Shown here in pieces: positions 12,084 to 26,542 of a stretch of DNA of 64,000 nucleotides. The stretch covers positions 62,001 to 126,000 of the forward strand of contig CANHVU010000004.1 in the NCBI GenBank assembly GCA_947464275.1, given 5' to 3'. Numbering within the stretch: the stretch's first letter is position 1; each line of letters opens with the position of its first letter. The position numbers and the translations under genes were made by a program. Below the pieces are notes generated by a model. It searched no databases. It saw only the letters and a list, made by a program, of their open reading frames with translations, and was not told the DNA's origin. The stretch is from Bacteroidota bacterium (GTDB taxonomy: Bacteria; Bacteroidota; Bacteroidia; UKL13-3).

Positions 12084-13007
12084 ATGAAAAAAGAAGTATA
12101 CTTAACATTTGATATTGAAATAGTTACTGCAAAGTTTAGTAAAAACTCAAACTATCTTTCTGCACTTTTTATTGCCCCATTGCTTATTGCAAAACTGCTA
12201 AAAGATAGAAATTTAAAAGCTACTTTTTTTGTTAGTCTTTCGCCTAAAATGCATGAATATTCTTTTGATTTTTATGAATATTATTTAGATTTATTATTTA
12301 CCAGTCTAAAGGGGTTTGAAAATATCAAAATAGCGCCCCATATTCATGGTAGAAATTTGCCAATGGATTTTAGTACAAAGGAAGATAGATTTGATAAATA
12401 CAATGATGAACAGCAAATTGCTTTATTAAATTGGGCAAAACAATATTTTAAGAAATATGGAATTGAGACTAATACTTTCAGGTCTGGTGGTTATTTTCAC
12501 TCAGAAAATTATTATAAAAATTTAACAGAAGCTAACTTTAGTAAAAGCTCTCTACTTTTCAGACAAAACATACCAAACATTGATTTAGTTAACAAGGAAG
12601 TAAATATTTCAAACCCATACACTGTTAATTCAATTACTGAATATCCTGTAACATCCGTTAAAATTAAATCAATTAAAAGGAAAATCGAAATAATTAACTT
12701 ATCACCCGAATTTCTCACTTTAGAATCGGTTAAACCATACTTAGAAAAATTACCGTATATCAATATGGTTTTTCACAGCTTTAGCCTTCAAACACCTAAG
12801 TTAATAAGGGAAAATCATTCTAATTTAATTTGGGAAAATTTAAAATACATACTATTTGAGAGAACGTTAAACATTATTTTAAACTCTCTGAATATTTATC
12901 CAATTTATAAAAATACTATTCTAAAAAAAGAACTAGTTAAATACCTTAACTATTTTAAGGAAAATAACGATATTTTTGAAACTAAATTCTTTGAAGAAAA
13001 GAATTAA
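12084..13007 (+). CDS. Polysaccharide deacetylase-like (NodB-fold) protein
   Basis: A 307-residue protein with a divergent NodB-type outline. VYLTFDIEIVTAKF (about residues 5-18) sits where the catalytic Asp strand lies, KATFFVSLSPKMHEY follows, then IAPHIHGRNLPMDF (His-x-His, about residues 85-98), TFRSGGYFHSENYYKNL (the R-x-G-G-Y substrate motif, about residues 132-148) and INMVFHSFSLQTP (the final His strand). The usual Asp-Asp pair is changed to Asp-Ile-Glu. It may deacetylate an N-acetyl sugar or be a related hydrolase; it is not close to the tandem pair at 3752-5994. It is the last gene before a 228-base gap. Confidence 0.65.
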   Translation: MKKEVYLTFDIEIVTAKFSKNSNYLSALFIAPLLIAKLLKDRNLKATFFVSLSPKMHEYSFDFYEYYLDLLFTSLKGFENIKIAPHIHGRNLPMDFSTKEDRFDKYNDEQQIALLNWAKQYFKKYGIETNTFRSGGYFHSENYYKNLTEANFSKSSLLFRQNIPNIDLVNKEVNISNPYTVNSITEYPVTSVKIKSIKRKIEIINLSPEFLTLESVKPYLEKLPYINMVFHSFSLQTPKLIRENHSNLIWENLKYILFERTLNIILNSLNIYPIYKNTILKKELVKYLNYFKENNDIFETKFFEEKN

Positions 13008-13017
13008 TATAATCATT

Positions 13018-13190
13018 TTGGGGTATTCATTTTGTCGATGTTTAATCAATAAAACCTTATTTAATTGATGTTGGTGTTTCTGCCAAGCCTCAAATTTAAT
13101 AAAAAGTAATCCATCGTTGCCAAATAAATGGCACTACTATATTCTGAATTGGTGCCCAAACCAAAACGAGAATGTAAATTAAAAGTATTC
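13018..13190 (-). pseudogene. Possible decayed coding remnant (frameshifted), unknown family
   Basis: The 228-base gap between 13007 and 13236 reads on the minus strand as two adjoining open segments in different frames. One gives FGLGTNSEYSSAIYLATMDY and the other FEAWQKHQHQLNKVLLIKH; they meet near 13095 and would join by a one-base shift. Composition is more coding-like than typical spacers here. No start is visible and the family is not recognised. It could be chance. Confidence 0.25.
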
Positions 13191-13235: not shown

Positions 13236-14321
13236 ATGCACATAACTATAATTGCTGGAACCAGACCTAATTTTATTAAAGTAGGCCCAATTATTCATGC
13301 TATTAACCGAGCAAAACAAGATAATAATATATCTTATCGATTGGTTCACACAGGACAACATTATGATAAAAAAATGAGTGATTCATTTTTTATTGATTTG
13401 AAAATTCCTCATCCCGATGTAAATTTATCATGTGGAGGTGGTACTCAGGCAGAGCAAACAGCAGCTATTATGATTGCTTTTGAGAAAGAATTAACTGAAA
13501 ATCCATGCGATTTTGTGTTGGTTGTAGGGGATGTTACTTCTACCATGGCTTGTACCATTGTAGCAAAAAAAATGAACACCAAAGTAATTCATGTTGAATC
13601 AGGAATACGCTCTTTTGATATGAGCATGCCAGAAGAAATAAACAGATTAGTAACCGATAGTTTAACTGATGTATTTTTTACAACCAGTGAATTTGCAAAT
13701 ACTAATTTACGAAACGAAGGTGTTCCAGATCATAAAGTTCATTTTGTTGGCAATGTAATGATTGACTCATTGATGGATAATATTGATAATTTTACTAAGC
13801 CTCTATTAGTAACAGAAAATAATTTATTAGAAAAAGCATACTTTGTTTTAACCCTGCATCGCCCTTCTAATGTTGACAATCCTGAAAATTTAAGAAACTT
13901 ACTTACTACCATACTCCAAAATGTAGGTAACAATAAAGTATTATTCCCCATCCATCCAAGAACCTTAAAAGTATTCAATACACTTAACCTTCATTTTGAT
14001 AATTTAATTATAGTAGAACCATTAGGCTATTTAGAATTTAATTGGTTAGTTAAAAATGCAAAAGGTGTAATAACAGATTCGGGAGGAATAACGGAGGAAA
14101 CAACGGTTTTGGGGGTACCTTGTATGACTTTAAGAGAAAATACCGAAAGGCCAGAAACATGTTCAGTAGGAACCAATGAATTAGTTGGATTGAATACAAC
14201 AGATATTATCAATGCTTTAGACAAAATAGTGTCGGGTAACTGGAAAAAAGGAGCAATTCCTGAAAAATGGGATGGCAAAACTTCTGATAGAATTGTAAAA
14301 ATACTTTTAGAAAATTACTAA
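13236..14321 (+). CDS. wecB: UDP-N-acetylglucosamine 2-epimerase (non-hydrolysing)
   Basis: A 361-residue GT-B-like epimerase that interconverts UDP-GlcNAc and UDP-ManNAc, or a di-N-acetylated analogue as WbpI does. Motifs: IIAGTRPNFIKVGPII at the N-terminus, VHTGQHYDKKMSDSFF (about residues 37-52), VVGDVTSTMACTIVAKK with Asp99, VIHVESGIRSFDMSMPEEINRLVTD with Glu121 and Glu134, LTLHRPSNVDN, and ITDSGGITEETTVLGVPCMTLRENTERPE. Length is normal. The WbpB/D/E-like genes at 22,845-25,607 make the WbpI alternative plausible. ATG at 13236 begins directly at the first strand. Confidence 0.9.
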   Translation: MHITIIAGTRPNFIKVGPIIHAINRAKQDNNISYRLVHTGQHYDKKMSDSFFIDLKIPHPDVNLSCGGGTQAEQTAAIMIAFEKELTENPCDFVLVVGDVTSTMACTIVAKKMNTKVIHVESGIRSFDMSMPEEINRLVTDSLTDVFFTTSEFANTNLRNEGVPDHKVHFVGNVMIDSLMDNIDNFTKPLLVTENNLLEKAYFVLTLHRPSNVDNPENLRNLLTTILQNVGNNKVLFPIHPRTLKVFNTLNLHFDNLIIVEPLGYLEFNWLVKNAKGVITDSGGITEETTVLGVPCMTLRENTERPETCSVGTNELVGLNTTDIINALDKIVSGNWKKGAIPEKWDGKTSDRIVKILLENY

Positions 14322-15561: not shown

Positions 15562-16167
15562 ATGTACAAATTTTTCTTTAAAAGATTAATTGATTTCATT
15601 TTATCACTAATTGGCTTTGTAGTATTACTGCCCATATTTTTATTGTTAACCATTTTATTAATAATTGCTAACAAAGGAACTCCATTTTTCTTTCAAAAAA
15701 GGCCAGGTAAAAACGAAAAAATATTTTCTGTTATAAAGTTCAAAACCATGAACGATAAGAAAGATAAAACAGGAAAGCTTTTACCAGATGCTGATAGAAT
15801 TACTTTAGTAGGAAAGTTTATCCGCTCTTCATCACTCGATGAAATACCTCAATTATTAAATGTAATAAAAGGTGACATGAGCTTAATTGGACCTCGCCCA
15901 CTATTAGTTAGTTATTTAGAAGTATATAATGATAAACACAAAAAACGCCATGATATTAGGCCAGGAATAACAGGTTGGGCTCAAGTAAATGGACGTAATG
16001 CCATTGAATGGCAACAAAAATTTGACCTTGATATTTACTACTTAGAAAACATGAACTTTTTATTAGATTTGAAAATAATATTAATAACTTTAAAAAGAGT
16101 TTTTAAAAGAGAAGGTATCAATTTTGAATCGACTCAAAAAAATAAATATTTCACTGGATACAACTAA
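15562..16167 (+). CDS. Phosphoglycosyl transferase, PglC-like initiating sugar transferase
   Basis: A 201-residue monotopic phosphoglycosyl transferase that moves a sugar-1-phosphate from a UDP-sugar to undecaprenyl phosphate, the first membrane step of glycan assembly. It has one N-terminal hydrophobic re-entrant helix (about residues 11-36), the KF-K-T-M-N motif at residues 59-64, the catalytic Asp93-Glu94 dyad in SSSLDEIPQLLN, MSLIGPRPLL and the C-terminal RPGITGWAQVNGRN. The short form with no extra N-terminal helices is like PglC rather than WcaJ. With two PglD-type proteins downstream, a 4-amino or bacillosamine-like first sugar is plausible. Confidence 0.92.
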   Translation: MYKFFFKRLIDFILSLIGFVVLLPIFLLLTILLIIANKGTPFFFQKRPGKNEKIFSVIKFKTMNDKKDKTGKLLPDADRITLVGKFIRSSSLDEIPQLLNVIKGDMSLIGPRPLLVSYLEVYNDKHKKRHDIRPGITGWAQVNGRNAIEWQQKFDLDIYYLENMNFLLDLKIILITLKRVFKREGINFESTQKNKYFTGYN

Positions 16168-16228
16168 TAGATTAAAATAAAATAGTTTTTCTGTTAGTCA
16201 AATAAATTGGCACAAATCATAGTCTAAG

Positions 16229-16245
16229 TTGACTTTTCAAGTCAA
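16229..16245. other. Short perfect hairpin in a 137-base intergenic gap
   Basis: TTGACTT-TTC-AAGTCAA forms a 7-base-pair stem with a 3-base loop between the sugar transferase and the PglD-like gene. It has no U-tract, so it is not a convincing terminator; it may stabilise or process the transcript before the acyl cassette. Confidence 0.35.
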
Positions 16246-16304
16246 TCCATTGGACTTGTGAACCTCAGAAGAACTTAATAATTAATACTCAAAAAAGATT
16301 TACC

Positions 16305-16946
16305 ATGAAAAAGATTGCAATATTTGGAGCAGGAGGATTTGGAAAAGAGATTGCTTGCCTAATAAATAGTATTAATAAACTGAATAATACTTGGGAATTT
16401 ATTGGTTTTTTTGATGATGGCCTGGAAATAGGCACTACCAATAAATACGGAAAAGTATTAGGTGGAATAAATGAATTAAACTCATTTAGCGAAGAACTAA
16501 ACATAGTTATTGCCATTGCTAATCCTTCCATTCTAAAAAAAATATATGCCTCTATTACCAATAGTTTAATAGAATTTCCTAATTTAGTAGCACCAAATGT
16601 CAACTTTTTTGATGAAGAAACATTGACTATTGGAAAAGGAAACTTATTGTTTTGGGGCTGCAGGATAAGCCTTGATTGTGTCATTGGGGATTTTAATTTA
16701 TTCAACGGATTTGTATCTTTAGGACACGATGTAACACTTGGGAGTTATAATGTTTTGAATCCATCTGTGCGCATATCAGGTGATTGCAATATAGGTGATG
16801 AGAATTTTTTTGGCGTGCAAAGTGTAGTATTGCAAGGCAATAAAATTGGAACAAAAACTAGAATTGGAGCAAACAGTGTAATTATGAGAAAAACACAAGA
16901 TGGACAACTATATATAGGCAATCCAGCAAAAAAAATTACGATATAA
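16305..16946 (+). CDS. PglD-like sugar N-acyltransferase
   Basis: A 213-residue two-domain transferase. The N-terminal Rossmann domain (IAIFGAGGFGKEIACLINS) binds the UDP-sugar in PglD, and a left-handed beta-helix follows from about residue 107. His141 in VSLGHDVTLGSYNVL matches the catalytic base of PglD. The end, DGQLYIGNPAKKI, is typical. It presumably N-acylates a 4-amino sugar nucleotide. The KAS III and ACP genes directly after it (no gap to 16947) suggest the donor may be acyl-ACP made by the cassette rather than acetyl-CoA; this is inference. Confidence 0.85.
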   Translation: MKKIAIFGAGGFGKEIACLINSINKLNNTWEFIGFFDDGLEIGTTNKYGKVLGGINELNSFSEELNIVIAIANPSILKKIYASITNSLIEFPNLVAPNVNFFDEETLTIGKGNLLFWGCRISLDCVIGDFNLFNGFVSLGHDVTLGSYNVLNPSVRISGDCNIGDENFFGVQSVVLQGNKIGTKTRIGANSVIMRKTQDGQLYIGNPAKKITI

Positions 16947-18008
16947 ATGGCATTTCAAGAAATTAAAAATATTCAAATTAAAGGTATTGCCGCTTGCGTA
17001 CCTGAACACATAGAAAACAATAGAACATCAAAAGTTTTTGAAGAAACTATTGATGCAGATAAATTTGTTGAAACAACAGGAATTGAAAAACGACACACTG
17101 TAAATGGTGAGGTAATATGTACTTCCGACTTGTGCCTAAAAGCTGCAGAAACACTTATTGCAAGTCTTAATTGGGACAAATCAGAAATTGATTGCTTGGT
17201 ATTCGTTACTCAAACTCCTGACTATATATTGCCTGCCACTTCATGCATTTTGCAAAATAGATTAGGATTATCAACTGAATGTTTTGCCATTGATATTTCC
17301 TTAGGTTGTTCTGGGTGGGTTTATGGCTTATCTACCATTGGTAGTTTATTAAGCAGTGGAAATTTTAAAAAAGGTTTACTTTTAGTGGGTGATACCGTAA
17401 CAGTTACTAAATCTAACCTCGACAAAAGTACTTACCCATTATTTGGAGATGCTGGAACTGCTACCGCACTAGAGTTTAAAGAAGGTGCAGATGGATTAAA
17501 AATACATACCGCAACTGATGGTAAAGGCTTTGAATCCATTATCATTAAAGATGGAGGTTTTAGGCATTTTTTCAATGAAAACTCTTTGAAAGTTGAAAAA
17601 CAATCTGATGGTGCCATTAGAAACAATCTTCAAAGCTATTTAAATGGACAAGATGTTTTTATTTTTGGTATTTCAAAAGCACCAAAAAGCATTTTAGGTT
17701 TGATTGAAAAATACAATATAAATAAGGAGGAAATTGACTATTTATTACTTCATCAAGCTAATTTCATGATGAATGATAAAATTAGAAAAAAAGTTAATAT
17801 TGAAGAAAATAAAGTACCCTATTCGTTAAATGAATTTGGTAATACATCATCAGCATCAATTCCGTTAACCTTGGTTACGAGATTAAGTAATGAGATGAAA
17901 TCAGGTAATAACAAAATAATGGCATGTGGATTTGGAGTTGGTTTATCGTGGGGTAGCGCTTATTTTGAAACCGAAAACTTATGTTGCCCTGAATTGATAA
18001 TATATTAA
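16947..18008 (+). CDS. Beta-ketoacyl-ACP synthase III family protein, copy 1
   Basis: A 353-residue thiolase-fold condensing enzyme of the FabH type. The Cys-His-Asn triad is complete: Cys121 in SLGCSGWVYGL, His269 in LLLHQANFMM and Asn299 in FGNTSSASIP. FabH enzymes condense an acyl-CoA with malonyl-ACP. The gene begins at the base after the PglD-like stop and is followed 19 bases later by an ACP. A second, clearly homologous copy follows, so this is unlikely to be the housekeeping fabH. The likely role is making a short 3-oxoacyl-ACP for decorating an amino sugar. Confidence 0.88.
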   Translation: MAFQEIKNIQIKGIAACVPEHIENNRTSKVFEETIDADKFVETTGIEKRHTVNGEVICTSDLCLKAAETLIASLNWDKSEIDCLVFVTQTPDYILPATSCILQNRLGLSTECFAIDISLGCSGWVYGLSTIGSLLSSGNFKKGLLLVGDTVTVTKSNLDKSTYPLFGDAGTATALEFKEGADGLKIHTATDGKGFESIIIKDGGFRHFFNENSLKVEKQSDGAIRNNLQSYLNGQDVFIFGISKAPKSILGLIEKYNINKEEIDYLLLHQANFMMNDKIRKKVNIEENKVPYSLNEFGNTSSASIPLTLVTRLSNEMKSGNNKIMACGFGVGLSWGSAYFETENLCCPELIIY

Positions 18009-18027
18009 AAAAATAAAAATAAAAATT

Positions 18028-18252
18028 ATGAAAGAACAATTTTTGAATCAAGTAAAAGAAACTTTAGAAATTACAGATCGTGAAATCAATTTTGAAGATA
18101 ATTTTAAAGAATACGATGAATGGGACTCTTTGAATTTATTATCAATAATTGCAATGATTGACGAGGAATATGGTGTTACAATTGATAGCAATACCATGTC
18201 GAAAATCACTACGATTGAAGAGCTATATAATATTATTGAAAGCAATAAATAA
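18028..18252 (+). CDS. Acyl carrier protein (glycan-locus specific)
   Basis: A 74-residue acidic helical protein with the phosphopantetheine attachment motif: Ser34 in YDEWDSLNLLSIIAMIDEEYG. This is shorter than, and different from, the usual DSLD(T/S)VE housekeeping AcpP motif, as in dedicated ACPs of secondary acyl pathways. It sits between two KAS III genes, so it most likely carries the growing acyl chain that they and the downstream reductase process. Confidence 0.9.
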   Translation: MKEQFLNQVKETLEITDREINFEDNFKEYDEWDSLNLLSIIAMIDEEYGVTIDSNTMSKITTIEELYNIIESNK

Positions 18253-18261
18253 ATAAAATAA

Positions 18262-19323
18262 GTGGGGCTACTTAAATTTTCGGATATTGGAATTACGGGA
18301 ATGGCTGCTGCTGTTCCTGCTAATACAATTGATAACTACAATTATACGATGCATTTTCCAACAGAAGATGTTAAAGATATAGTTGATAAAGTTGGTATTA
18401 AAGAAAGGCGCTTTGCTCCTGAGGGAATGTGTTCGTCTGACCTTTGCTTTGCAGCTGCAGAAAAACTCATATCTGATATGAAAATAGACAAATCAGAAAT
18501 TGATTTATTAGTTTTTATATCTCAAACCCCTGATTATAGAATGCCCGCAACATCTGTTTTATTGCAAAATAGATTAGGGTTATCTAAAAATACAGCAGCA
18601 TTCGATTTGACTTTAGGTTGTTCCGCATTTGTTTATGGGCTTTCAGTAGTTTTTAGTTTAGTTCAATCGGGGTTCATTAAAAAGGCCTTATTGTTAGATG
18701 GAGAAACACGTTCAAGAATTTACTCTCCTAAAGATAGAAAAACAGCTTTTTTATTTGGAGATGGCGGCATTGCTGCTATCATAGAAAAAAATTCAAAATT
18801 TGGCGATAGCTATTTTTCTCTTAACTCTGATGGTTCCAAAGAAAATTATATTAAAATAGATGGCGGTGGATACCGTAATCCAAGTTCTGAAGATTCTGTA
18901 AAAGAGAAAATAGTTGATGAACATGGAAATATAAGAACAGATGAACATGGCTACATGAATGGCGCTGATGTTTTTAATTTTGTTATTTCTGAAATACCAA
19001 CAGACTTAAAAAACTTATATGAGTTTGCAAATGAAACAAAAGATAACATGGATTATTATGTTTTTCACCAAGCCAATAGTTATATGAATAACTACCTTGC
19101 CAAAAAACTTAAATTGGATACTTCTAAAGTACCAACTTGTATCGAATCGTTTGGTAACACTTCATCTGTCTCCATTCCATTGACAATTGTAAGTCAATTA
19201 CAAAATGAATTAAAAGGTAAGAAAAACAAACTATTATTATCTGGTTTTGGTGTTGGTATGAGTTGGGCCTCTTCAATTTTAAATTTTGATGATTGCCATA
19301 TTTCAGATCTTATAGAGTTATAA
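18262..19323 (+). CDS. Beta-ketoacyl-ACP synthase III family protein, copy 2
   Basis: A 353-residue paralogue of the KAS III at 16947, identical in length and with an intact triad: Cys120 in TLGCSAFVYGL, His269 in YVFHQANSYM and Asn299 in FGNTSSVSIP. The start is the GTG at 18262; it aligns the N-terminal SDIGITGMAAAVPANTID with ..IQIKGIAACVPEHIEN of copy 1, and an in-frame ATG only occurs inside this strand. Regions between the triad residues differ considerably, as expected if the two copies take different primers. One may start the chain and the other extend it. Confidence 0.87.
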   Translation: MGLLKFSDIGITGMAAAVPANTIDNYNYTMHFPTEDVKDIVDKVGIKERRFAPEGMCSSDLCFAAAEKLISDMKIDKSEIDLLVFISQTPDYRMPATSVLLQNRLGLSKNTAAFDLTLGCSAFVYGLSVVFSLVQSGFIKKALLLDGETRSRIYSPKDRKTAFLFGDGGIAAIIEKNSKFGDSYFSLNSDGSKENYIKIDGGGYRNPSSEDSVKEKIVDEHGNIRTDEHGYMNGADVFNFVISEIPTDLKNLYEFANETKDNMDYYVFHQANSYMNNYLAKKLKLDTSKVPTCIESFGNTSSVSIPLTIVSQLQNELKGKKNKLLLSGFGVGMSWASSILNFDDCHISDLIEL

Positions 19324-19327
19324 ACTT

Positions 19328-20071
19328 ATGATAGAAAACAATCCATTTTCACTTAATGAAAAAACGGTACTTGTAACAGGTGCATCATCAGGTATTGGTA
19401 AAGCCATTGCACAGGAATGTGCTAAAATGGGCGCTAAACTTATCATTACCGCACGAAATGAGGAACGTTTAAAAGATACATTACAATCACTTGTTGGTAA
19501 TGGGCATCAATATATTATTGCAGACTTTTCTAGTGATGATGGCATAAATGATTTAGTTAAATCGTTACCCATTTTAGATGGCATGGTTCATTGTGCTGGA
19601 CTAATTAAACGTTTACCCCTAAAGTTTGTAAATGAATCGCATTTAACAGAAATAATGCAAACAAACTTCTTTGCACCAGCATTAATTACCCAAAAGATTT
19701 ATAAAGCAAAAAAAATACAACAAGAAGGTTCGGTTGTTTTCATATCATCTGTTGCAACAGGTTTTGCATCATTTGGAAATATAATGTACATGGCCTCCAA
19801 AGGGGCAATAAATTCACTTTCAAAAGGAATAGCTTTTGAATTAGCCACTCAAAAAATAAGGGTAAATTGCATTGAACCTGGAATGATAGTTACCAACTTA
19901 ACTAAAGCTATTTCGGATGAAGAACTAGCTGAAGATGTAAAAAGATATCCTTTAGGTAGGTTTGGAAAGCCCGAAGAAATTGGATATGCAGCTGTTTATT
20001 TACTTTCTAATGCCAGTAAATGGATCACAGGAAGTGTTATTAAAATAGATGGTGGTTTAACTTTAAGGTAA
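19328..20071 (+). CDS. 3-oxoacyl-ACP reductase-like short-chain dehydrogenase
   Basis: A 247-residue classical SDR. TGASSGIG (residues 17-24) is the NAD(P) loop, HCAG (88-91) the structural motif, and the catalytic set is Ser140 or Ser141, Tyr154 and Lys158 (YMASK). The C-terminus RFGKPEEIGYAAVYLLSNASKWITGSVIKIDGGLTLR is FabG-like. In this cassette it would reduce the 3-oxoacyl-ACP from the KAS III enzymes to a 3-hydroxyacyl-ACP. No dehydratase or enoyl reductase follows, which favours a hydroxy-acyl end product. Confidence 0.88.
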   Translation: MIENNPFSLNEKTVLVTGASSGIGKAIAQECAKMGAKLIITARNEERLKDTLQSLVGNGHQYIIADFSSDDGINDLVKSLPILDGMVHCAGLIKRLPLKFVNESHLTEIMQTNFFAPALITQKIYKAKKIQQEGSVVFISSVATGFASFGNIMYMASKGAINSLSKGIAFELATQKIRVNCIEPGMIVTNLTKAISDEELAEDVKRYPLGRFGKPEEIGYAAVYLLSNASKWITGSVIKIDGGLTLR

Positions 20072-20090
20072 TTAATAAAAGATACAAATT

Positions 20091-20558
20091 TTGGAAAATG
20101 ATTTTGAATTAGTTTTTTCTGCCTTTATTAATAAAAGTTACTTAGATGATTTGCAGGAAATCTTATTTTTCAATCCTCATCAAAAAAAGTATAAAAATAA
20201 AATAGTAGATGCCATAAATTTATGTGGCAAACCAGAAGTAATTGAGGAAAACAACTTGATTACAATCCAATTAGACAAAAATCAACTTCAACAAACACTT
20301 TTTGTATTAGACAAAAGTGAAGATAAAAGATTATTAGCATTAATTATTTTTAAAAAAGAAAGCGATGTAGTTGAAGTTATTCATTTAGCTTTTGCACCAT
20401 TTTGTAAGGATATATTTATAAATGAAAATATTTCTATTTTTAACCAAACTATCATTCAATTTTCAAAAATGCTAAGCCATTTTAAAGAAATTAAATTTAT
20501 TAAATTTCATTATAAAAATTTGAAAATAAATATTGATAAGGTTAGAAATTGGAAATAA
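20091..20558 (+). CDS. Conserved-looking protein of unknown function in the acyl cassette
   Basis: A 155-residue protein that I do not recognise. It starts with TTG at 20091; a stop lies 15 bases upstream and no in-frame ATG precedes the structured region. The segment LLALIIFKKESDVVEVIHLAFAPFCKD (about residues 83-109) resembles the central beta-bulge strand of GNAT acyltransferases, but a clear acyl-CoA loop (Q/RxxGxG/A) is absent. Its place between the ketoreductase and a second PglD-like transferase suggests it helps in acyl transfer or chain handling. Function is left open. Confidence 0.6.
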   Translation: MENDFELVFSAFINKSYLDDLQEILFFNPHQKKYKNKIVDAINLCGKPEVIEENNLITIQLDKNQLQQTLFVLDKSEDKRLLALIIFKKESDVVEVIHLAFAPFCKDIFINENISIFNQTIIQFSKMLSHFKEIKFIKFHYKNLKINIDKVRNWK

Positions 20559-20579
20559 CATATTATAATTGAAATTGTA

Positions 20580-21176
20580 ATGAATAAAAGTATTTGGATA
20601 TATGGTGCAGGTGGAATGGGCAAAGAAACACTTTGGCTTATTGAGGAAATGTTAGCTAACGAAATTAATGTATTAGGCTTTGTTGATGATTTTAAACTTG
20701 ATACCCAATTTAAAAATTTACCTTTATTAAATAAAATTGAACCCAATAGCAATGTTATCATTGCAGTAGCTGATTCTAAGATTAGAAAACAAATTAAAGA
20801 AAGTAATGAATTCAATTTTGTAAATATCATTCATCCAAATATCAATATTCATAAGAGTACTAGTATTGGAACTGGTAATATTATTTGTAAAGGAGTTGAA
20901 TTAACAGTTGATATCAAAATTGGAGACCATGTAATCATAAATATCAATAGTACAATTGGTCATGATGCAATAATTGAAAATTTCGTTTCAATCATGTTTG
21001 GAGTGCACATTTCGGGTAATGTAAAAATTGGTGAAGGAACATTAATTGGTTCTGGAGCAGTGATTTTACCTAATTTAACAATTGGAAAATGGTGTAAAAT
21101 TGGTGCTGGGGCAGTGGTTACCAAAAACATTCCTGATAATAGCACCGTTATTGGTGTTCCGGGTAGAATAATATAG
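20580..21176 (+). CDS. PglD-like sugar N-acyltransferase, second copy
   Basis: A 198-residue relative of the protein at 16305. It has the Rossmann N-terminus [20 protein letters not shown] and a beta-helix with His128 in [15 protein letters not shown], the PglD catalytic base. It ends ...[15 protein letters not shown]. Two PglD-type enzymes bracket the KAS III/ACP/reductase block, so one may use acetyl-CoA and the other the cassette's acyl-ACP. Which does which cannot be told from sequence. A 475-base non-coding gap follows. Confidence 0.85.
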
Positions 21177-21651
21177 CTTTCATAAAGTTAATTAAATAAA
21201 AAAATTCTATTTCTTTTAATTGAATATTTGGTGATTAACAATGTGTAGTTAAAAACATTTAAATTGCCCATTTGCGTATGATTGATTACACATTATGCAC
21301 TAGAAAACTATTTTACGAATTATCATTACATTGTTGGTAAAAATCATTTCACCCTTTTTTATTTAATACTACCAACATTTTAGCACAAAGCTAACTTTTG
21401 AGCTATTTTTATTTTTAATAGACTCTTGCTTTTTTTCGCTATTTTCCCCAATAAAATTTCCCTCATGTATTATGCAGTTATTTCTTGTTAGATATTCTTA
21501 AGAATAAAATATTTGAATACTTAAAATTAAAAAATTAAATACTAAGTAAATTAACTATACAAATACTTATTTTACTTAACAAGATAACTTTAGCATATTT
21601 GTAATATGACCAATTGTTATTAATATTGTACGTTAAAATTAAAAAATCTAA
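21177..21651 (+). other. Long AT-rich intergenic region, probable new transcription start
   Basis: A 475-base spacer, the longest in the glycan locus. It holds an 8-base inverted repeat (TGTTGGTA at 21332-21339 and TACCAACA at 21370-21377), a palindrome TTCTTAAGAA near 21490-21505, and many A/T tracts. No open frame, tRNA or clean terminator was seen. A TAACTTTA box near 21586 resembles the -7 consensus TAnnTTTG but lacks a matched TTG at -33. It probably carries the promoter for the aminotransferase-to-YdcF operon. Confidence 0.4.
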
Positions 21652-22788
21652 ATGACAAAACCTAAAATTTGGCTTTCATCGCCACATATGTGTGGAAAAG
21701 AGTTTGAGTATGTAAAAGATGCTTTTGATACCAATTGGATTGCGCCATTAGGCCCCCATGTTGATGGTTTTGAAAAAGATTTATGTAACTTTACTCAATC
21801 AGAAAATGCAGCAGCGTTAAGTGCAGGTACAGCAGCTATTCATTTAGCATTAATATTATTAGATGTAAAAGCAGGCGATGAGGTAATTTGTCAAAGTTTT
21901 ACCTTTTCAGCATCTGCAAATCCAATAGTTTATCAAGGTGCAATACCTGTTTTTGTTGATTCGGAAGAAGAAACATGGAATATGTGTCCAATTCAATTAA
22001 GAAAAGCAATTGAGGATAGAATAAGTAAAGGTAAAAAGCCAAAAGCCATTATACCTGTTCATTTATATGGTATGCCAGCTAAAATGAACGAAATATTAGC
22101 AATTGCTGCTGAATTTGGAATTCCAATTATAGAAGATGCTGCAGAAGGATTAGGCTCAAAAATAAACGAGAAAGCATGTGGTACTTTTGGCAATTTGGGT
22201 GTGTTATCATTTAATGGAAACAAAATTATTACCACTAGTGGTGGTGGCGCCTTAATTTCGAATAACGAAGAATATATAAATAAGGCTCGTTTTTTAGCTA
22301 CACAAGCGCGAGATTCAGCACCTCATTACCAACACTCTCATATTGGATATAATTACAGAATGAGTAATGTTTGTGCTGCAATTGGACGAGGACAAATGAC
22401 TGTTTTGCAAGATAGGATAAACCAAAGACGGTTGAATTTTGAATTATATGAAAAACATTTGGAGGGAATTAGTGGAATTACTTTTTTAAAGGAACCTGCT
22501 GGTTATTACAGCAATCGTTGGTTAAGTACAATACTAGTTGACCCATTACATACTAATGGTATTACAAGAGATGATATTAGGTTAGCCCTTGAAAAAGAAA
22601 ATATAGAAAGCCGTCCATTATGGAAACCTATGCATATGCAACCTATTTTTGAACAATATCCATACTATGGAACCAATGTATCAGAAAAACTTTTTGACCA
22701 AGGATTATGCTTACCATCTGGAAGTAATTTATCTACTTCTGAACATCAATTGGTAATCAATATAATAAAAGAATTACTGGGTAAGTAA
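21652..22788 (+). CDS. DegT/DnrJ/EryC1 aminotransferase (PglE-like)
   Basis: A 378-residue PLP-dependent sugar aminotransferase. IWLSSPHMCGKEFEYVKDAFDTNWIAPLGPHVDGFEKDL at the N-terminus is the signature of the PglE/perosamine-synthase branch, which aminates C4 of UDP-4-keto sugars. PLP contacts: Asp162 in IIEDAAEGLGS and the Schiff-base Lys191 in SFNGNKIITTSGGG. Its product would be the 4-amino sugar that the PglD-like enzymes acylate. The matching 4,6-dehydratase (PglF type) is not in the window. Confidence 0.9.
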   Translation: MTKPKIWLSSPHMCGKEFEYVKDAFDTNWIAPLGPHVDGFEKDLCNFTQSENAAALSAGTAAIHLALILLDVKAGDEVICQSFTFSASANPIVYQGAIPVFVDSEEETWNMCPIQLRKAIEDRISKGKKPKAIIPVHLYGMPAKMNEILAIAAEFGIPIIEDAAEGLGSKINEKACGTFGNLGVLSFNGNKIITTSGGGALISNNEEYINKARFLATQARDSAPHYQHSHIGYNYRMSNVCAAIGRGQMTVLQDRINQRRLNFELYEKHLEGISGITFLKEPAGYYSNRWLSTILVDPLHTNGITRDDIRLALEKENIESRPLWKPMHMQPIFEQYPYYGTNVSEKLFDQGLCLPSGSNLSTSEHQLVINIIKELLGK

Positions 22789-22844
22789 AAATCTTCACAT
22801 ACTTAATAAAAGGAAAATAGTAAATTCCTTTTTTTAACAAATCA

Positions 22845-23861
22845 ATGTCAAAAATAAAATTTGCAATCATAGGTTTAGGACATATTGGTAAACGCCATGC
22901 TGATATTATATTATCTAATACAGATGCAGAACTGATTGCTTTCATTGAAATTAATCCTAGCAATGAAATCAAGGAATATAATCTACCGATATTTGATAGT
23001 TTAAGTGATTTTATTGCTAGCAATATGGAGGTAGATGTTATGTGTATAGCAACTCCTAATTATTTGCATTGCCAACAAGCAATCAAATGCTTAGAAAATA
23101 ACATGCATGTGGTAATTGAGAAGCCCTTGGGATTAACTACCGAAGAATGCAATTCTGTTATTGAAAAATCAAAACAAGTCAATAAAAATGTATTTTGTGT
23201 AATGCAAAATAGGTACTCTCCCCCATCGATTTGGTTAAAAGAAATTGTTTCAAGTAATATACTTGGCCAAATATTCAACGTTCAAATAAATTGTATTTGG
23301 AATAGGGATGAAAACTATTATAAACTCAATGGTTGGAAGGGTAAACTTAATTTAGATGGTGGAACATTGTTCACTCAGTTTAGCCATTTTGTTGATACAT
23401 TGTATTGGATATTTGGTGATATACATAATATTGCTGCCAATTTTTATAATTTTAACCACAAAAACACCATAGAATTTGAAGATAGTGGAAACATTAGTTT
23501 TTCGTTATTAAATGGTGGAGTTGGTTCCATTAATTATAGTACTTCTGCTTACAATAAAAACATAGAAAGTAGCATAACCATTTTAGCCGAATTTGGCAGT
23601 ATCAAAATAGGTGGGCAATACATGGAAAAGGTACTCCATTGTGAAATAAAAGATTACGAAATGCCAGCTATGAATCCAACCAATCCACCAAATGATTATG
23701 GAAAATATAAAGGCAGTGCAGCTAATCACGAGTACGTTATCAAAAATGTAATCAATACCATCAATAAAAAAGAAGAAATTAAAACCACTGCAATAGAGGG
23801 AATGAAAGTAGTTCAAATGATAGAACAAATATATCTTCTAAGAAACATAAATAACTTATAA
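22845..23861 (+). CDS. Gfo/Idh/MocA oxidoreductase (WbpB/WlbA-like)
   Basis: A 338-residue NAD(P)-dependent oxidoreductase. The Rossmann loop is FAIIGLGHIGKRHADIIL (residues 5-22), EKPLGLTTEEC (about residues 92-102) carries the conserved Lys of the EKP motif, and GGTLFTQFSHFVDTLYWIFGD (about residues 173-193) contains the catalytic-region His. With the next two genes it matches the WbpB/WbpD/WbpE order, in which it would oxidise C3 of UDP-GlcNAcA. It could also act on another sugar nucleotide. Confidence 0.87.
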   Translation: MSKIKFAIIGLGHIGKRHADIILSNTDAELIAFIEINPSNEIKEYNLPIFDSLSDFIASNMEVDVMCIATPNYLHCQQAIKCLENNMHVVIEKPLGLTTEECNSVIEKSKQVNKNVFCVMQNRYSPPSIWLKEIVSSNILGQIFNVQINCIWNRDENYYKLNGWKGKLNLDGGTLFTQFSHFVDTLYWIFGDIHNIAANFYNFNHKNTIEFEDSGNISFSLLNGGVGSINYSTSAYNKNIESSITILAEFGSIKIGGQYMEKVLHCEIKDYEMPAMNPTNPPNDYGKYKGSAANHEYVIKNVINTINKKEEIKTTAIEGMKVVQMIEQIYLLRNINNL

Positions 23862-23871
23862 AAAAGAAAAT

Positions 23872-24447
23872 ATGGATTCCTATTTTGCACATGAAACTGC
23901 CGTAATTGATGATAACTGTTCTATCGGAAATGGTGTCAAGATTTGGCATTTTTCTCATATCATGTCAAATTCAATTATAGGTGATAAATGTAATATTGGG
24001 CAAAATGTTGTTATATCGCCAAATGTAGTTCTTGGTAAAAATGTAAAAGTTCAAAATAATGTTTCGATATATACAGGTGTTACCTGCGAAGATGATGTAT
24101 TTTTGGGCCCATCAATGGTATTTACCAATGTAATAAATCCGAGAAGTGCGGTAGTAAGAAAAAACGAGTACCTTCAAACAATAGTAAAAAAAGGTGCTTC
24201 TATTGGAGCCAATGCCACCATTATTTGTGGAAATACAATTAATGAATACGCCTTAATTGGTGCAGGAACTGTAGTTACAAAATCAGTTAAAGCATTTGCA
24301 TTGGTTATTGGTAACCCTGCAAAACAAATTGGATGGGTTAGTGAAAATGGCCACCGCCTTCATTTTGATAACAATGGACTTGGCATTTGCAAAGAAACCA
24401 AACAAGAATACGAACTAAAAGAAGGAATTGTTAAACGAGTAAAATAA
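23872..24447 (+). CDS. UDP-sugar N-acetyltransferase (WbpD/WlbB-like)
   Basis: A 191-residue beta-helix acetyltransferase. VKIWHFSHIMSNSIIGDKCNIGQNVVIS, NNVSIYTGVTCEDDVFLGPSMVFTNVINPRS and the tail GNPAKQIGWVSENGHRLHF are highly typical of WbpD/WlbB, which acetylates the 3-amino group of UDP-GlcNAc3NA. It stands between the oxidoreductase and the second aminotransferase, as in the wbp and wlb clusters. Assignment to this family is strong; the exact sugar is inferred. Confidence 0.9.
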   Translation: MDSYFAHETAVIDDNCSIGNGVKIWHFSHIMSNSIIGDKCNIGQNVVISPNVVLGKNVKVQNNVSIYTGVTCEDDVFLGPSMVFTNVINPRSAVVRKNEYLQTIVKKGASIGANATIICGNTINEYALIGAGTVVTKSVKAFALVIGNPAKQIGWVSENGHRLHFDNNGLGICKETKQEYELKEGIVKRVK

Positions 24448-24482
24448 TAATTTTACCTAGCATAACACCGATAGATAATTAT

Positions 24483-25607
24483 ATGTTAAAAATTCAAATG
24501 GTAGATCTTAAAGGGCAATATGATAAAATAAAGCCTCTTATAGATAACGCTATACAAGATGTTATTGACAAATCGAGTTTTATTAAAGGAACTCAGGTGC
24601 AACTATTTGAAAAAAATTTAGCTTCCTACTTAAATGTAAAACATGTAATTTCTTGTGCAAATGGAACAGATGCTTTACAAATTGCAATGATGGCATTAAA
24701 TTTAAAACCAGGTGACGAAATTATGGTACCTGCTTTTACTTATGTTGCTACTGCGGAAGTAATTTCATTGTTAGGCTTAACCCCTATTTTGATTGATGTA
24801 GACAACGAAACATTTTGCATTGACACAAAACTTATAGAAGAAAAAATAACTATTAATACCAAAGCAATTGTACCTGTTCATTTATTTGGTCAATGTGCTA
24901 ACATGGATGAAATTGAATTATTAGCACAAAAATACAATTTATTTATTATTGAGGATAATGCGCAAGCATTAGGTTCACAATACACTTTTAGAAATAATAT
25001 TACCAAAAAAGCGGGTACCATTGGTACCATAGGTATCACCTCCTTTTTTCCTTCAAAAAACTTAGGTTGCTTTGGTGATGGTGGTGCATTGATGACTAAT
25101 GATGATAATTTAGCCAAAAAAATTACCATGATTTGTAACCATGGTCAATCTCAAAAATATGTCCATGATATTATAGGAGTGAACTCACGACTTGATACCA
25201 TTCAAGCAGCTGTATTGAATGTAAAATTAAATGAATTATCAAATTACGAAAAAGCAAGAAACCAAGTAGCTGATTTGTATGATAAACTATTAGGAAATAA
25301 TCCTAAAATAAAAATACCTAAAAGAAGTTCAAGTAGTACGCACGTTTTCCATCAATATACTATTCAAATTAATGCTACTGAAAGAGATAACTTAAAAAGT
25401 GAATTATTGAAACTTAATATACCTACAATGGTTTATTATCCAATAGCATTACATATGCAAAAAGCATTTAATTTAGATCATAAAATTGGTAGTTTACCTG
25501 TTTCAGAAGTATTATGCAAAACTGTTATATCACTTCCAATTCATACCGAAATGAATAAAAATCAAATTGAATATATTGCGCAAAGTATAAATACTATTTT
25601 ACAATAA
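24483..25607 (+). CDS. DegT/DnrJ/EryC1 aminotransferase (WbpE/WlbC-like)
   Basis: A 374-residue PLP aminotransferase. DKSSFIKGTQVQLFEKNLASYLNVKHVISCANGTDALQIAMMAL (about residues 29-72) matches the C3-aminotransferase branch. PLP residues are Asp158 in IIEDNAQALGSQY and Lys192 in FFPSKNLGCFGDGG. It would convert UDP-3-keto-GlcNAcA to the 3-amino sugar using glutamate. It differs from the DegT at 21652 in branch signature, so the two most likely serve two different sugars. Confidence 0.9.
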   Translation: MLKIQMVDLKGQYDKIKPLIDNAIQDVIDKSSFIKGTQVQLFEKNLASYLNVKHVISCANGTDALQIAMMALNLKPGDEIMVPAFTYVATAEVISLLGLTPILIDVDNETFCIDTKLIEEKITINTKAIVPVHLFGQCANMDEIELLAQKYNLFIIEDNAQALGSQYTFRNNITKKAGTIGTIGITSFFPSKNLGCFGDGGALMTNDDNLAKKITMICNHGQSQKYVHDIIGVNSRLDTIQAAVLNVKLNELSNYEKARNQVADLYDKLLGNNPKIKIPKRSSSSTHVFHQYTIQINATERDNLKSELLKLNIPTMVYYPIALHMQKAFNLDHKIGSLPVSEVLCKTVISLPIHTEMNKNQIEYIAQSINTILQ

Positions 25608-25611
25608 TAAA

Positions 25612-26127
25612 ATGCAAAATAAGAAAGCAATTCAATTTATTTTACTTTTCACATTAAGTTATATATTACTTAATGGAATATACCAATGGGTACTTTGGCT
25701 TTATGCTCCAAAACCCGATTTTATTACTTTATATACTTCAATTATTTTTTGTAAGATTTTTACAAAATTTAACTTATCAATATTATTATTTAAGCCAGCA
25801 GTATTAATTAGTTTGAAGGAAAAAGGGTTGGTTAATATTGCAGAAGGATGTAATGGAATTGCTGTTTTCAATACGCTACTAAGTTTTATAATTGCATTTA
25901 AAAGTGACTTATCAAAATACTTAAAATTCATTCCAATATCATTAGCCATTCTTTTTATTATTAACATTATAAGGCTATATATTTTAGTTGAAATAAAAAT
26001 TAGTACCCCTCAATTTTTCGACTTATTTCACACTTATATTTTTCCAATAATATTATATTTTATAACATTCATATTAATGATTGTTTGGGTTAAATTTTTT
26101 AATAAAAAAGAGGATGTTAGCCAATAA
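25612..26127 (+). CDS. Exosortase family protein, XrtF-like
   Basis: A 171-residue polytopic membrane protein (about five or six helices). It has the exosortase triad: Cys80 in NIAEGCNGIAVFNTLL, Arg121 in INIIRLYILV and His140 in FDLFHTYIFPIILY. The small size, lack of a C-terminal extra domain and overlap with a small membrane partner fit the Bacteroidota XrtF type. Exosortases cleave and relocate proteins bearing a C-terminal sorting signal, often in organisms making exopolysaccharide. It begins 4 bases after the WbpE-like gene. No protein in this window shows an evident sorting signal, so its targets lie elsewhere. Confidence 0.82.
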   Translation: MQNKKAIQFILLFTLSYILLNGIYQWVLWLYAPKPDFITLYTSIIFCKIFTKFNLSILLFKPAVLISLKEKGLVNIAEGCNGIAVFNTLLSFIIAFKSDLSKYLKFIPISLAILFIINIIRLYILVEIKISTPQFFDLFHTYIFPIILYFITFILMIVWVKFFNKKEDVSQ

Positions 26128-26542
26128 AAAAATCATTTGGGGTGGTAAAATAATTCCCATATTCGTAATTTTTATTCTTGATTTTTTGTTTCAAAACTTC
26201 AATATACTCACATTTAAATTTAGTGCATGTAGTTTTTATACTTTCAACCCTGATTGTGTTGAATTTAATGCATTTGCACTGAGTAAATTATTCAGGCTTG
26301 CCCTTAATTTATTATCAGTTAATTTGATAATTAAACTTTACAAAATAAATATTGCCAATAAATTGATTTATATATTCACTGCATTACTAATTTATATAAT
26401 AGATATGGTTATGTGCTATTCTCAACATTCACTGTTATTAAATTGGCATAAGGTATTAAATCCTTTTCTATTTAGTCCATTAATTGGAATTGCATTATTG
26501 GCTTGGTTAATCACAATCAGAAAAACAACATTAAATGATTAG
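26114..26542 (+). CDS. Exosortase F system-associated membrane protein
   Basis: A 142-residue membrane protein starting at the ATG at 26114, preceded by AAAAGAGG, so it overlaps the exosortase by 14 bases. A longer TTG-initiated form from 26081 would overlap more and adds a non-homologous-looking stretch. There are four or so hydrophobic helices (about residues 9-25, 50-70, 76-97, 120-138) and a conserved-looking motif MCYSQHSLLLNWHKVLNPFLFSP. Position and topology match the small partner that accompanies XrtF. Its mechanistic role is not known. Confidence 0.72.
   Translation: MLANKKIIWGGKIIPIFVIFILDFLFQNFNILTFKFSACSFYTFNPDCVEFNAFALSKLFRLALNLLSVNLIIKLYKINIANKLIYIFTALLIYIIDMVMCYSQHSLLLNWHKVLNPFLFSPLIGIALLAWLITIRKTTLND

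Follow-up and report, generated by a model that had tools for sequence, protein, structure and literature searches.

The window analysed here is a stretch of 64,000 nucleotides of contig CANHVU010000004.1 (contig C4) from a Bacteroidota bacterium of the UKL13-3 lineage (GCA_947464275.1), which harbors a compact acyl-synthesis module at 16305-21176, inside a glycan locus. Coordinates are window positions, and the genes described between 13236 and 25607 all lie on the + strand. The first gene of the recurring block encodes a PglC-like monotopic phosphoglycosyl transferase (15562-16167; Bac_transf PF02397, 6.9e-62), the equivalent of wfpB of Flavobacterium psychrophilum. It is followed by PglD-A, a PglD-type N-acyltransferase of 213 aa (16305-16946; PglD_N and Hexapep), and by KAS-A, a 3-ketoacyl-acyl carrier protein synthase III (KAS III) of 353 aa belonging to the KsA clade (16947-18008; ACP_syn_III and ACP_syn_III_C). 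Then come a dedicated acyl carrier protein (ACP) of 74 aa (18028-18252; PP-binding, 3.5e-10), KAS-B, a KAS III of the KsB clade, likewise of 353 aa and the same two families, with a GTG start (18262-19323), and a ketoreductase (KR) of the short-chain dehydrogenase/reductase (SDR) type (19328-20071; 247 aa, adh_short_C2, 1e-51). A 155-aa protein of unknown function with a TTG start (20091-20558), which recurs next to acyl cassettes, precedes a second PglD-type transferase, PglD-B, of 198 aa (20580-21176; PglD_N). A PglE/LegC-like 4-aminotransferase follows at 21652-22788 (DegT, 3.1e-97); it scores 402 bits with its best NCBIfam model, a LegC-like one whose cut-off is 420.

These families were assigned by Pfam and NCBIfam profile searches with the nine proteins encoded in 15562-22788. 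PglD_N matches the two PglD-type proteins at 2.5e-14 and 6.3e-09, and ACP_syn_III_C the two KAS III at 4.2e-25 and 2.3e-21; these four proteins, the ACP, and the KR all score above the curated Pfam cut-offs. From PglD-A to PglD-B, including the 155-aa open reading frame (ORF), the intergenic gaps measure 0, 19, 9, 4, 19, and 21 bases. The original prediction, made from the sequence alone, had placed two KAS III, an ACP and a ketoreductase between two PglD-type transferases. ORFs and Pfam matches bear this out over 16305-21176, although the 155-aa ORF had been overlooked. The catalytic residues it had listed are present: the Cys-His-Asn triad, which we equate by roles with C112/H244/N274 of E. 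coli FabH, is intact in both KAS III, the ACP carries the DSL serine in alignment with E. coli AcpP, and the KR has the Ser...YxxxK motif. The PglD-type assignment is supported by PglD_N together with a left-handed beta-helix; the histidine of the GHD motif, presumably the catalytic residue in PglD/NeuD N-acyltransferases, aligns with a histidine of VioB and of the pilin glycosylation protein 4m98. The lack of a dehydratase and an enoyl reductase also holds, since none of the nine proteins matched a dehydratase family at E <= 0.01 and none an enoyl reductase; "Enoyl-(ACP) reductase" is merely the Pfam title of the SDR family PF13561. The module is thus real and intact.

The block recurs in other genomes. 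The order PglC-PglD-A-KAS-A-ACP-KAS-B-KR is common to loci L002-L007, found in two Flavobacterium, a Ferruginibacter, two Chlorobiaceae metagenome-assembled genomes (MAGs) and one Bacteroidetes MAG, and to L133. Ten block loci were compared, L001-L008, L011, and L133, among which the ACP gene has moved in L001 of F. aciduliphilum DSM 25663, no PglC gene is adjacent in L008 and L011, and two small ORFs lie between ACP and KAS-B in L005. Identity to the window is 58-64% for PglD-A, 59-71% for KAS-A, 58-76% for KAS-B, 46-65% for KR and 44-60% for ACP. PglD-A lies directly upstream of KAS-A in 10/10 and PglC just upstream of PglD-A in 8/10 (L001-L007 and L133; 51-61% identity), while the sequenced stretches examined contain a PglE-like gene in six and a long PglF-like gene in four. 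KAS-A was found at E <= 1e-100 in 1/64 genomes of the window's family, the window genome itself, and at E <= 1e-110 in 5/299 genomes of the genus of F. aciduliphilum, with 71% identity in the centre genome and 50-52% in the other four. So sporadic a distribution is as expected of a transferred unit, and it is proposed from these comparisons that PglC-PglD-A-KAS-A-ACP-KAS-B-KR was acquired as one.

Close relatives carry different genes between PglC and the aminotransferase. Among ten genomes of the genus, own included, the aminotransferase occurs in six (E <= 1e-120) and PglD-B in four (E <= 1e-50). Where the window has its two-KAS module, genome G001 has a third KAS type, an AMP-binding enzyme, a GNAT protein, two SDRs, a small ACP, an MBL-fold protein, a 155-aa protein, and PglD-B, preceded by GNAT, PIG-L, and PglD-A-like genes. 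G006 carries a similar set, which begins with a PglD-A-like fragment where the contig starts; G005 has ACP, KAS-B, KR, a PglD, and PglD-B; and G003, and more weakly G002, has an ATP-grasp/PylC-like protein in a slot that contains neither a KAS nor a PglD. Three sugar genes flank the slot in the window (22845-25607; a GFO oxidoreductase, a hexapeptide transferase, and an aminotransferase by family matches), which we take to be WbpB-, WbpD-, and WbpE-like. They follow also in G001, G002, and G003, and the G006 contig has only the start of the first. No such genes were seen in the 12,000 bases examined in G005, so that PglC, PglD-B, and the aminotransferase are the markers of the shared place in this genome. 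As further observations, an acyl cassette of the G001 kind occurs in the window's family at L110:6976-13683, L109:3-8139, L111:6788-14677, L113:811-8055, and L114:6859-14000, and consists of a KAS III, an AMP-binding enzyme, a middle protein (GNAT in L110), two SDRs, a 72-aa ACP, an MBL-fold protein, a 155-aa protein, and a PglD-A-like protein; families were scanned in L110 and for one ACP of L111, the others being recognized by length and similarity. In G005 a region between ACP and KAS-B (L115:4231-5123) lacks a sizeable ORF and has recurring peptide stretches in its frames, which suggests a repeat array.

Comparison with L110, the locus of G001, separates the two PglD-type genes. To the right, identities are 89% for PglD-B, 93% for the aminotransferase, and 96-97% for the WbpB/D/E-like proteins; to the left of PglD-B all compared genes fall below 55% (PglD-A 52%, KAS 37%, 155-aa protein 39%). 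At the nucleotide level, blastn aligns 20593-27084 with L110 (93.0% identity, 6,510 bp), and the alignment continues up to where the compared G001 sequence stops. The left edge of the shared stretch falls at 20580-20593, homology starting abruptly at 20593, and left of it a single 171-bp match at E <= 1e-10 lies inside PglD-A. Because PglD-B is conserved with the aminotransferase side while the left-hand genes diverge, it appears to be a gene of the resident locus, and PglD-A the module's own transferase; the two are probably not equivalent.

A described counterpart of the module is the O-antigen locus of F. psychrophilum. According to the account of Cisar et al. (2019, PMC6519341), wfpC and wfpE encode 3-ketoacyl-ACP synthases, wfpD an ACP, wfpF a reductase, wfpG a PglD homologue, and wfpB a PglC homologue, and these genes with pglE and pglF are proposed to build a 3,5-dihydroxyhexanoyl group on UDP-Qui2NAc4N; strains carry alleles R1, R2, or R3, and the R-group genes are linked to lipopolysaccharide antigenicity. 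As described there, R1 resembles the window in its homologues of PglC, two KAS, ACP, KR, PglD, and PglE, in the order KAS-ACP-KAS-KR (the reference order being inferred from the gene names wfpC-wfpF and the text), and in that R-group genes differ between strains at an otherwise shared locus. The original prediction had named the same acyl group and put it on Qui4N; the acyl group agrees with the published account and the sugar does not, being 2-N-acetylated Qui2NAc4N (PMC6519341). The window differs from R1 by the extra PglD-B and 155-aa genes and by its flanking WbpB/D/E-like sugar genes. Gene order, which had been offered as a check, thus agrees for KAS-ACP-KAS-KR, by gene names, while PglF, part of the published gene set (PMC6519341), is not in the same cluster here. 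Different cassettes at one place follow the same principle as the R1-R3 alleles, in another family. The genome's long dehydratase lies outside the window on contig C34 (655 aa, PF02719, 5e-120), and we take it to be PglF-like.

The module most probably, at odds of roughly two in three, uses its own ACP to assemble a short hydroxyacyl chain, with which it acylates the 4-amino group of a bacillosamine-type sugar. The families, catalytic residues, co-conservation, and differing cassettes are read from the sequence, and from them we infer the substrates, the order of the KAS enzymes, the chain length, the sugar, and the loading of malonyl; the general function is well supported and the product probable. 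In this scheme the PglF encoded elsewhere and the PglE-like aminotransferase would make UDP-Qui2NAc4N. KAS-B would condense acetyl-CoA with malonyl-ACP, malonyl being presumably loaded by a housekeeping FabD-type enzyme, and the KR would reduce the product to 3-hydroxybutyryl-ACP. KAS-A would then add a second malonyl unit and the same KR would reduce again, giving 3,5-dihydroxyhexanoyl-ACP. PglD-A would transfer this chain to UDP-Qui2NAc4N, and the acylated sugar, most simply UDP-Qui2NAc4NR, would pass to PglC, which would place the sugar phosphate on undecaprenyl phosphate. The job named in the original prediction, two condensations and reductions followed by 4-N-acylation, fits both the sequence and the proposal of Cisar et al.; it has to be amended in that the two PglDs are not equivalent and the long PglF-like gene sits on C34. 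Since the gene set was already proposed in F. psychrophilum, the interpretation, though likely, is not new, and applies that proposal to another organism. New here are the differing cassettes at one place, the separation of the two PglDs, the division of the KAS III into two lineages, and the recurrence of the 155-aa protein. A search of the literature (titles and abstract openings, with few subscription papers) found no two-KAS glycan cassette outside PMC6519341.

KAS III, ACP, and SDR proteins also occur in secondary-metabolite clusters, and many KAS-A loci have no PglC or PglE-like gene near. The cassette might then make a free small molecule or lipid and sit in a glycan locus by chance. 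The constancy of PglD-A and PglC in the block loci speaks against this, as does the cassette's place in the PglC-aminotransferase slot, where relatives carry other cassettes, and such a product is barely credible.

The two KAS III belong to distinct lineages. In a FastTree phylogeny of 158 sequences rooted on E. coli FabH, KAS-A falls in a clade of 108 and KAS-B in a clade of 31, each with support 99, joined by a weak node (41); neither clade holds E. coli FabH or the genome's own FabH. The triad is intact in 109/109 KAS-A-clade and 39/39 KAS-B-clade sequences. At FabH positions 32/36/151/249, which we take to be the CoA/ACP contacts Trp32/Arg36/Arg151/Arg249, KAS-A has K/T/K/M, KAS-B D/K/R/Y, and the genome's own FabH W/R/R/R; both window enzymes depart from FabH at Trp32, Arg36, and Arg249, KAS-B keeps Arg151, and KAS-A is altered more. 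The housekeeping FabH/FabG/AcpP set therefore resembles the cassette in folds, triads, and partial reactions, and differs from it in that the cassette has no dehydratase or enoyl reductase, that its KAS clades exclude FabH, and that these contact residues are changed.

Occurrence was surveyed from both sides. A KAS-A-anchored set with one genome per species, taken from the best 80 of 241 confirmed relatives, gave 79 loci: 54 complete, 24 truncated, and one without an intact ORF. Within 5 kb the complete loci have KAS-B in 22, a second KAS-A in 17 (one also with KAS-B), another KAS type in seven, and no other KAS in nine, three of which (L049, L067, L069) have a further KAS-A at greater distance; 45 of the 54 have an ACP at no more than 1.5 kb, and 53 a KR at no more than 3 kb. 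This set is biased by its query, so separate KAS-B searches were made, which gave 12/395 genomes of the phylum at E <= 1e-100, own genome included, and 12/398 of the genus of F. paronense at E <= 1e-120, centre genome included; the locus of F. paronense CECT 8460 itself (L002) carries both KAS. Two of the 22 other KsB-anchored loci are cut at KAS-B. The 20 complete ones comprise four with KAS-A (L133, L138, L140, L142, of which L138/L140/L142 repeat L005/L007/L020) and 16 without it; the count of locus content took 19 of the 22, leaving out the three repeats. All 16 KAS-B-only loci, ten from one genus, have an ACP, a KR, and a PglD, and nine have PglE-like and long PglF-like genes.

The KR and PglD lineages differ between cassettes with KAS-A and those with KAS-B only. 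A KR clade of 87 members around the window KR (support 99) takes in 84 KRs from KsA loci, including 30/31 KRs from two-KAS loci, and just 1/19 from KAS-B-only loci, namely L135, a locus cut off at KAS-B. Likewise, 0/18 PglDs of KAS-B-only loci fall in the PglD-A half of the PglD tree, whose midpoint split is weakly supported (54). Judged by these two trees, the window cassette looks like a KAS-A-type cassette to which KAS-B was added. Because KAS-B occurs without KAS-A in 16/20 complete loci, each with ACP, KR, and PglD, it can presumably start a chain, and the use of other KR and PglD lineages by KAS-B-only cassettes implies that the enzymes acting last here go with KAS-A. Together with the less altered CoA-contact residues of KAS-B (R151 and K36, against K and T in KAS-A), this makes KAS-B first and KAS-A second the likelier order. 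The reverse, in which the same module serves the same target and KAS-A starts from acetyl-CoA while KAS-B elongates, would agree with KAS-A being the first KAS gene of the block and standing alone in some loci; it is unlikely, though a serious contender. An argument from dependency, one type always being accompanied by the other, was rejected, as both types occur alone.

The viosamine island of Pseudomonas syringae (vioA, vioB, acp, vioS, vioR) has one KAS III, VioS, and its described product is 3-hydroxybutyryl on Qui4N (PMC3927599). It resembles the window in that an aminotransferase, a VioB-type transferase, an ACP, a KAS III, and a KR acylate a 4-amino sugar, and differs in its single KAS III, its C4 product, and its dTDP-Qui4N in a flagellin glycan, as far as it is described. 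Deletion of vioA, vioB, or the reductase gene vioR removes the modified sugar, and mutant and mass spectrometry evidence is given for vioA, vioB, vioR, vioT, and vioM; vioS and acp were assigned by homology (PMC3927599). The window module could by this model make 3-hydroxybutyryl in one round, with its two KAS III redundant or forming a mixed dimer. Its single KR would suit such a product, and among the glycans listed in PMC8074265, more have QuiNAc4N bearing 3-hydroxybutanoyl than bearing dihydroxyhexanoyl. The full triad in every aligned member of both clades, the conservation of the pair across Flavobacterium, Ferruginibacter, and Chlorobiaceae, and the association of a two-KAS, one-KR set with the C6 dihydroxy group in the account of F. 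psychrophilum (PMC6519341) make it improbable.

The transferase could also be PglD-B, PglD-A having another acceptor or serving plain acetylation. PglD-B stands after the KR and before the aminotransferase, where the gene names would put the PglD of F. psychrophilum and where one-KAS (KsB) Flavobacterium cassettes have theirs. Even so, a PglD-B-like gene (>200 bits, <=6 kb) occurs in 0/54 complete KAS-A loci, against 24/54 for a PglD-A-like gene (>170 bits, <=5 kb), and PglD-B is 89% kept in G001, whose cassette differs in gene content. PglD-B also scores higher against solved acetyltransferases (VioB 96, 4m98 95, and UDP-N-acetylbacillosamine N-acetyltransferase PglD 77 bits) than PglD-A does (71, 68, and 34 bits). 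For these reasons PglD-B is disfavoured, and its role as the module's transferase appears rather improbable.

Several points weigh against acylation by a two-step C6 pathway as set out above. The usual primers of KAS III are acyl-CoAs, and it would be unusual for such an enzyme to extend a hydroxyacyl-ACP; primers other than acetyl-CoA are possible too. KAS-A is the sole KAS within 5 kb in 9/54 complete loci, so that it too can probably start a chain and the reverse order is kept open, and at large PglC is near KAS-A in 17 and a PglE-like gene in 11 of the 54. KR and PglD-A are tied to KAS-A in one direction only, as 24/108 KRs near KAS-A lie outside the window KR clade and 19/53 PglDs near KAS-A outside the PglD-A half, the window's PglD-B among these. 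By alphabetical names, the PglD of F. psychrophilum (wfpG) may follow the KR, unlike PglD-A. The likeness to that species rests on published descriptions rather than on sequence comparison: its cluster was sought among 299 + 398 genomes (overlapping partial samples) of the genus to which F. aciduliphilum and F. paronense belong and was not identified, and 0/8 typing primers published in PMC5601056 occurred in the loci first collected.

Configuration bears on the role of the KR. FabG gives (R)-hydroxyacyl chains. In 3,5-dihydroxyhexanoate the Cahn-Ingold-Prelog order at C3 and C5 should equal that at C3 of 3-hydroxybutyrate, hence (3S,5S) would mean two reductions of the same selectivity, opposite to that of FabG, and one dedicated KR for both rounds fits this. 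The acyl group of the F. psychrophilum O-polysaccharide is given as (3S,5S) (PMC3210612); if the window product had the same configuration, the facial selectivity of its KR would be opposite to that of FabG, a possible reason for keeping a dedicated KR. An (S)-3-hydroxybutanoyl group on QuiNAc4N is reported in other bacteria (PMC8074265, PMC9676051), and for V. cholerae O3 one account gives (R) (PMC8074265) and another leaves the configuration undetermined (PMC3210612). Other acyl configurations may therefore exist.

Two further systems can be compared. The Pgl system of Campylobacter jejuni presumably uses acetyl-CoA as donor and neither an ACP nor a KAS. Its PglF/PglE/PglD/PglC proteins, which make N,N'-diacetylbacillosamine according to PMC6519341, share the sugar-side logic and the transferase folds with the window, and PglD-A is weakly similar to the solved PglD (34 bits). 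The Acinetobacter genes qhbC/qhbB/gdr are described for QuiNAc4NHb (PMC3628348, PMC9676051), a 4-N-hydroxyacyl-QuiNAc4N like that proposed here. That module is listed there with these three genes only, and the terms "acyl carrier" and "ketoacyl" are absent from the main texts of both papers.

More broadly, the PglC-PglE interval may be a plug-in slot of Bacteroidota surface-glycan loci at which whole N-acyl modules are exchanged: KAS-A with KAS-B; KAS-B alone; a KAS with AMP ligase, two SDRs, MBL-fold, and 155-aa proteins; or an ATP-grasp ligase. The type and number of KAS III would set the chain length, and one KAS III clade would elongate hydroxyacyl-ACP. We regard this generalization as tentative, its chances falling somewhat short of even. 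Serotype is influenced by the N-acyl groups that surface amino sugars carry. Should the acyl group be predictable from gene content (one KAS, C4; two KAS, C6; other tailoring genes, other groups), such decorations could be read from the genomes of many uncultured Bacteroidota. The KAS-A/KAS-B pair would, if the proposal is true, make it possible to test by what means a KAS III lengthens a hydroxyacyl chain.

The 155-aa protein has no Pfam or NCBIfam match at E <= 0.01, and its best Pfam and PDB matches are no better than E 0.04, which is chance level; a single-sequence AlphaFold model has a mean pLDDT of 45. Searching 62 genomes of the window's family gave matches in eight other genomes, of which one is weak (E 0.007, with internal stops). 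In L109-L114 the homologue adjoins a gene of ~201-217 aa (MBL fold by Pfam in L110), and in L136 it lies between KsB and KR. Seven homologues agree in 11 columns, start Met included; the window protein keeps 10 of these, with Leu25 for Phe as the exception, and the eight aligned sequences have nine invariant columns besides the start Met. Since the ORF is open and these columns are kept, a decayed leftover is thought unlikely.

Elsewhere in the locus, a non-hydrolysing UDP-GlcNAc 2-epimerase (WecB/WbpI-like) is encoded at 13236-14321 (TIGR00236, 305 bits, cut-off 210). Upstream of the window lie a nucleotide-sugar dehydrogenase nearest to TviB and, in L166 (G000:C4:43000-62600), a NeuB-like synthase, a PseF-like cytidylyltransferase, and a KDN-9-phosphate phosphatase-like protein, each below its model cut-off; a Gmd gene is also found upstream. 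The NeuB-like, PseF-like, and phosphatase-like genes suggest that the same glycan contains a nonulosonic acid. The WbpE-like gene is followed immediately by one for an exosortase-like protein (25612-26127), which scores 84 bits for XrtX and 79 bits for XrtF, both below cut-off, and passes the general exosortase signature; a small protein follows at 26081-26542. L110 has proteins of equal lengths and very similar starts at the same place.

Among the other KAS-A loci, the Brumimicrobium cassette L009 has two KAS-A, an ACP, two KRs, and a phosphopantetheinyl transferase-like gene (12709-13050 of that locus; 113 aa, TIGR00556). Gut Bacteroidales loci such as L030, L038, and L053 are larger, with one more KAS, one more small ACP, and a ~524-529-aa gene beside a core of PglC, PglD-A, ACP, KAS-A, and KR. 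Plasmid records gave KAS III matches in 342/72,556, all below 60% identity. The nearest plasmid-borne relatives of KAS-A belong to Parabacteroides distasonis (NZ_OY725812.1, 53%; NZ_OY725780.1, 42%), the match in NZ_OY725780.1 also overlapping an annotated acyl carrier protein, and these may represent mobile copies of such cassettes.

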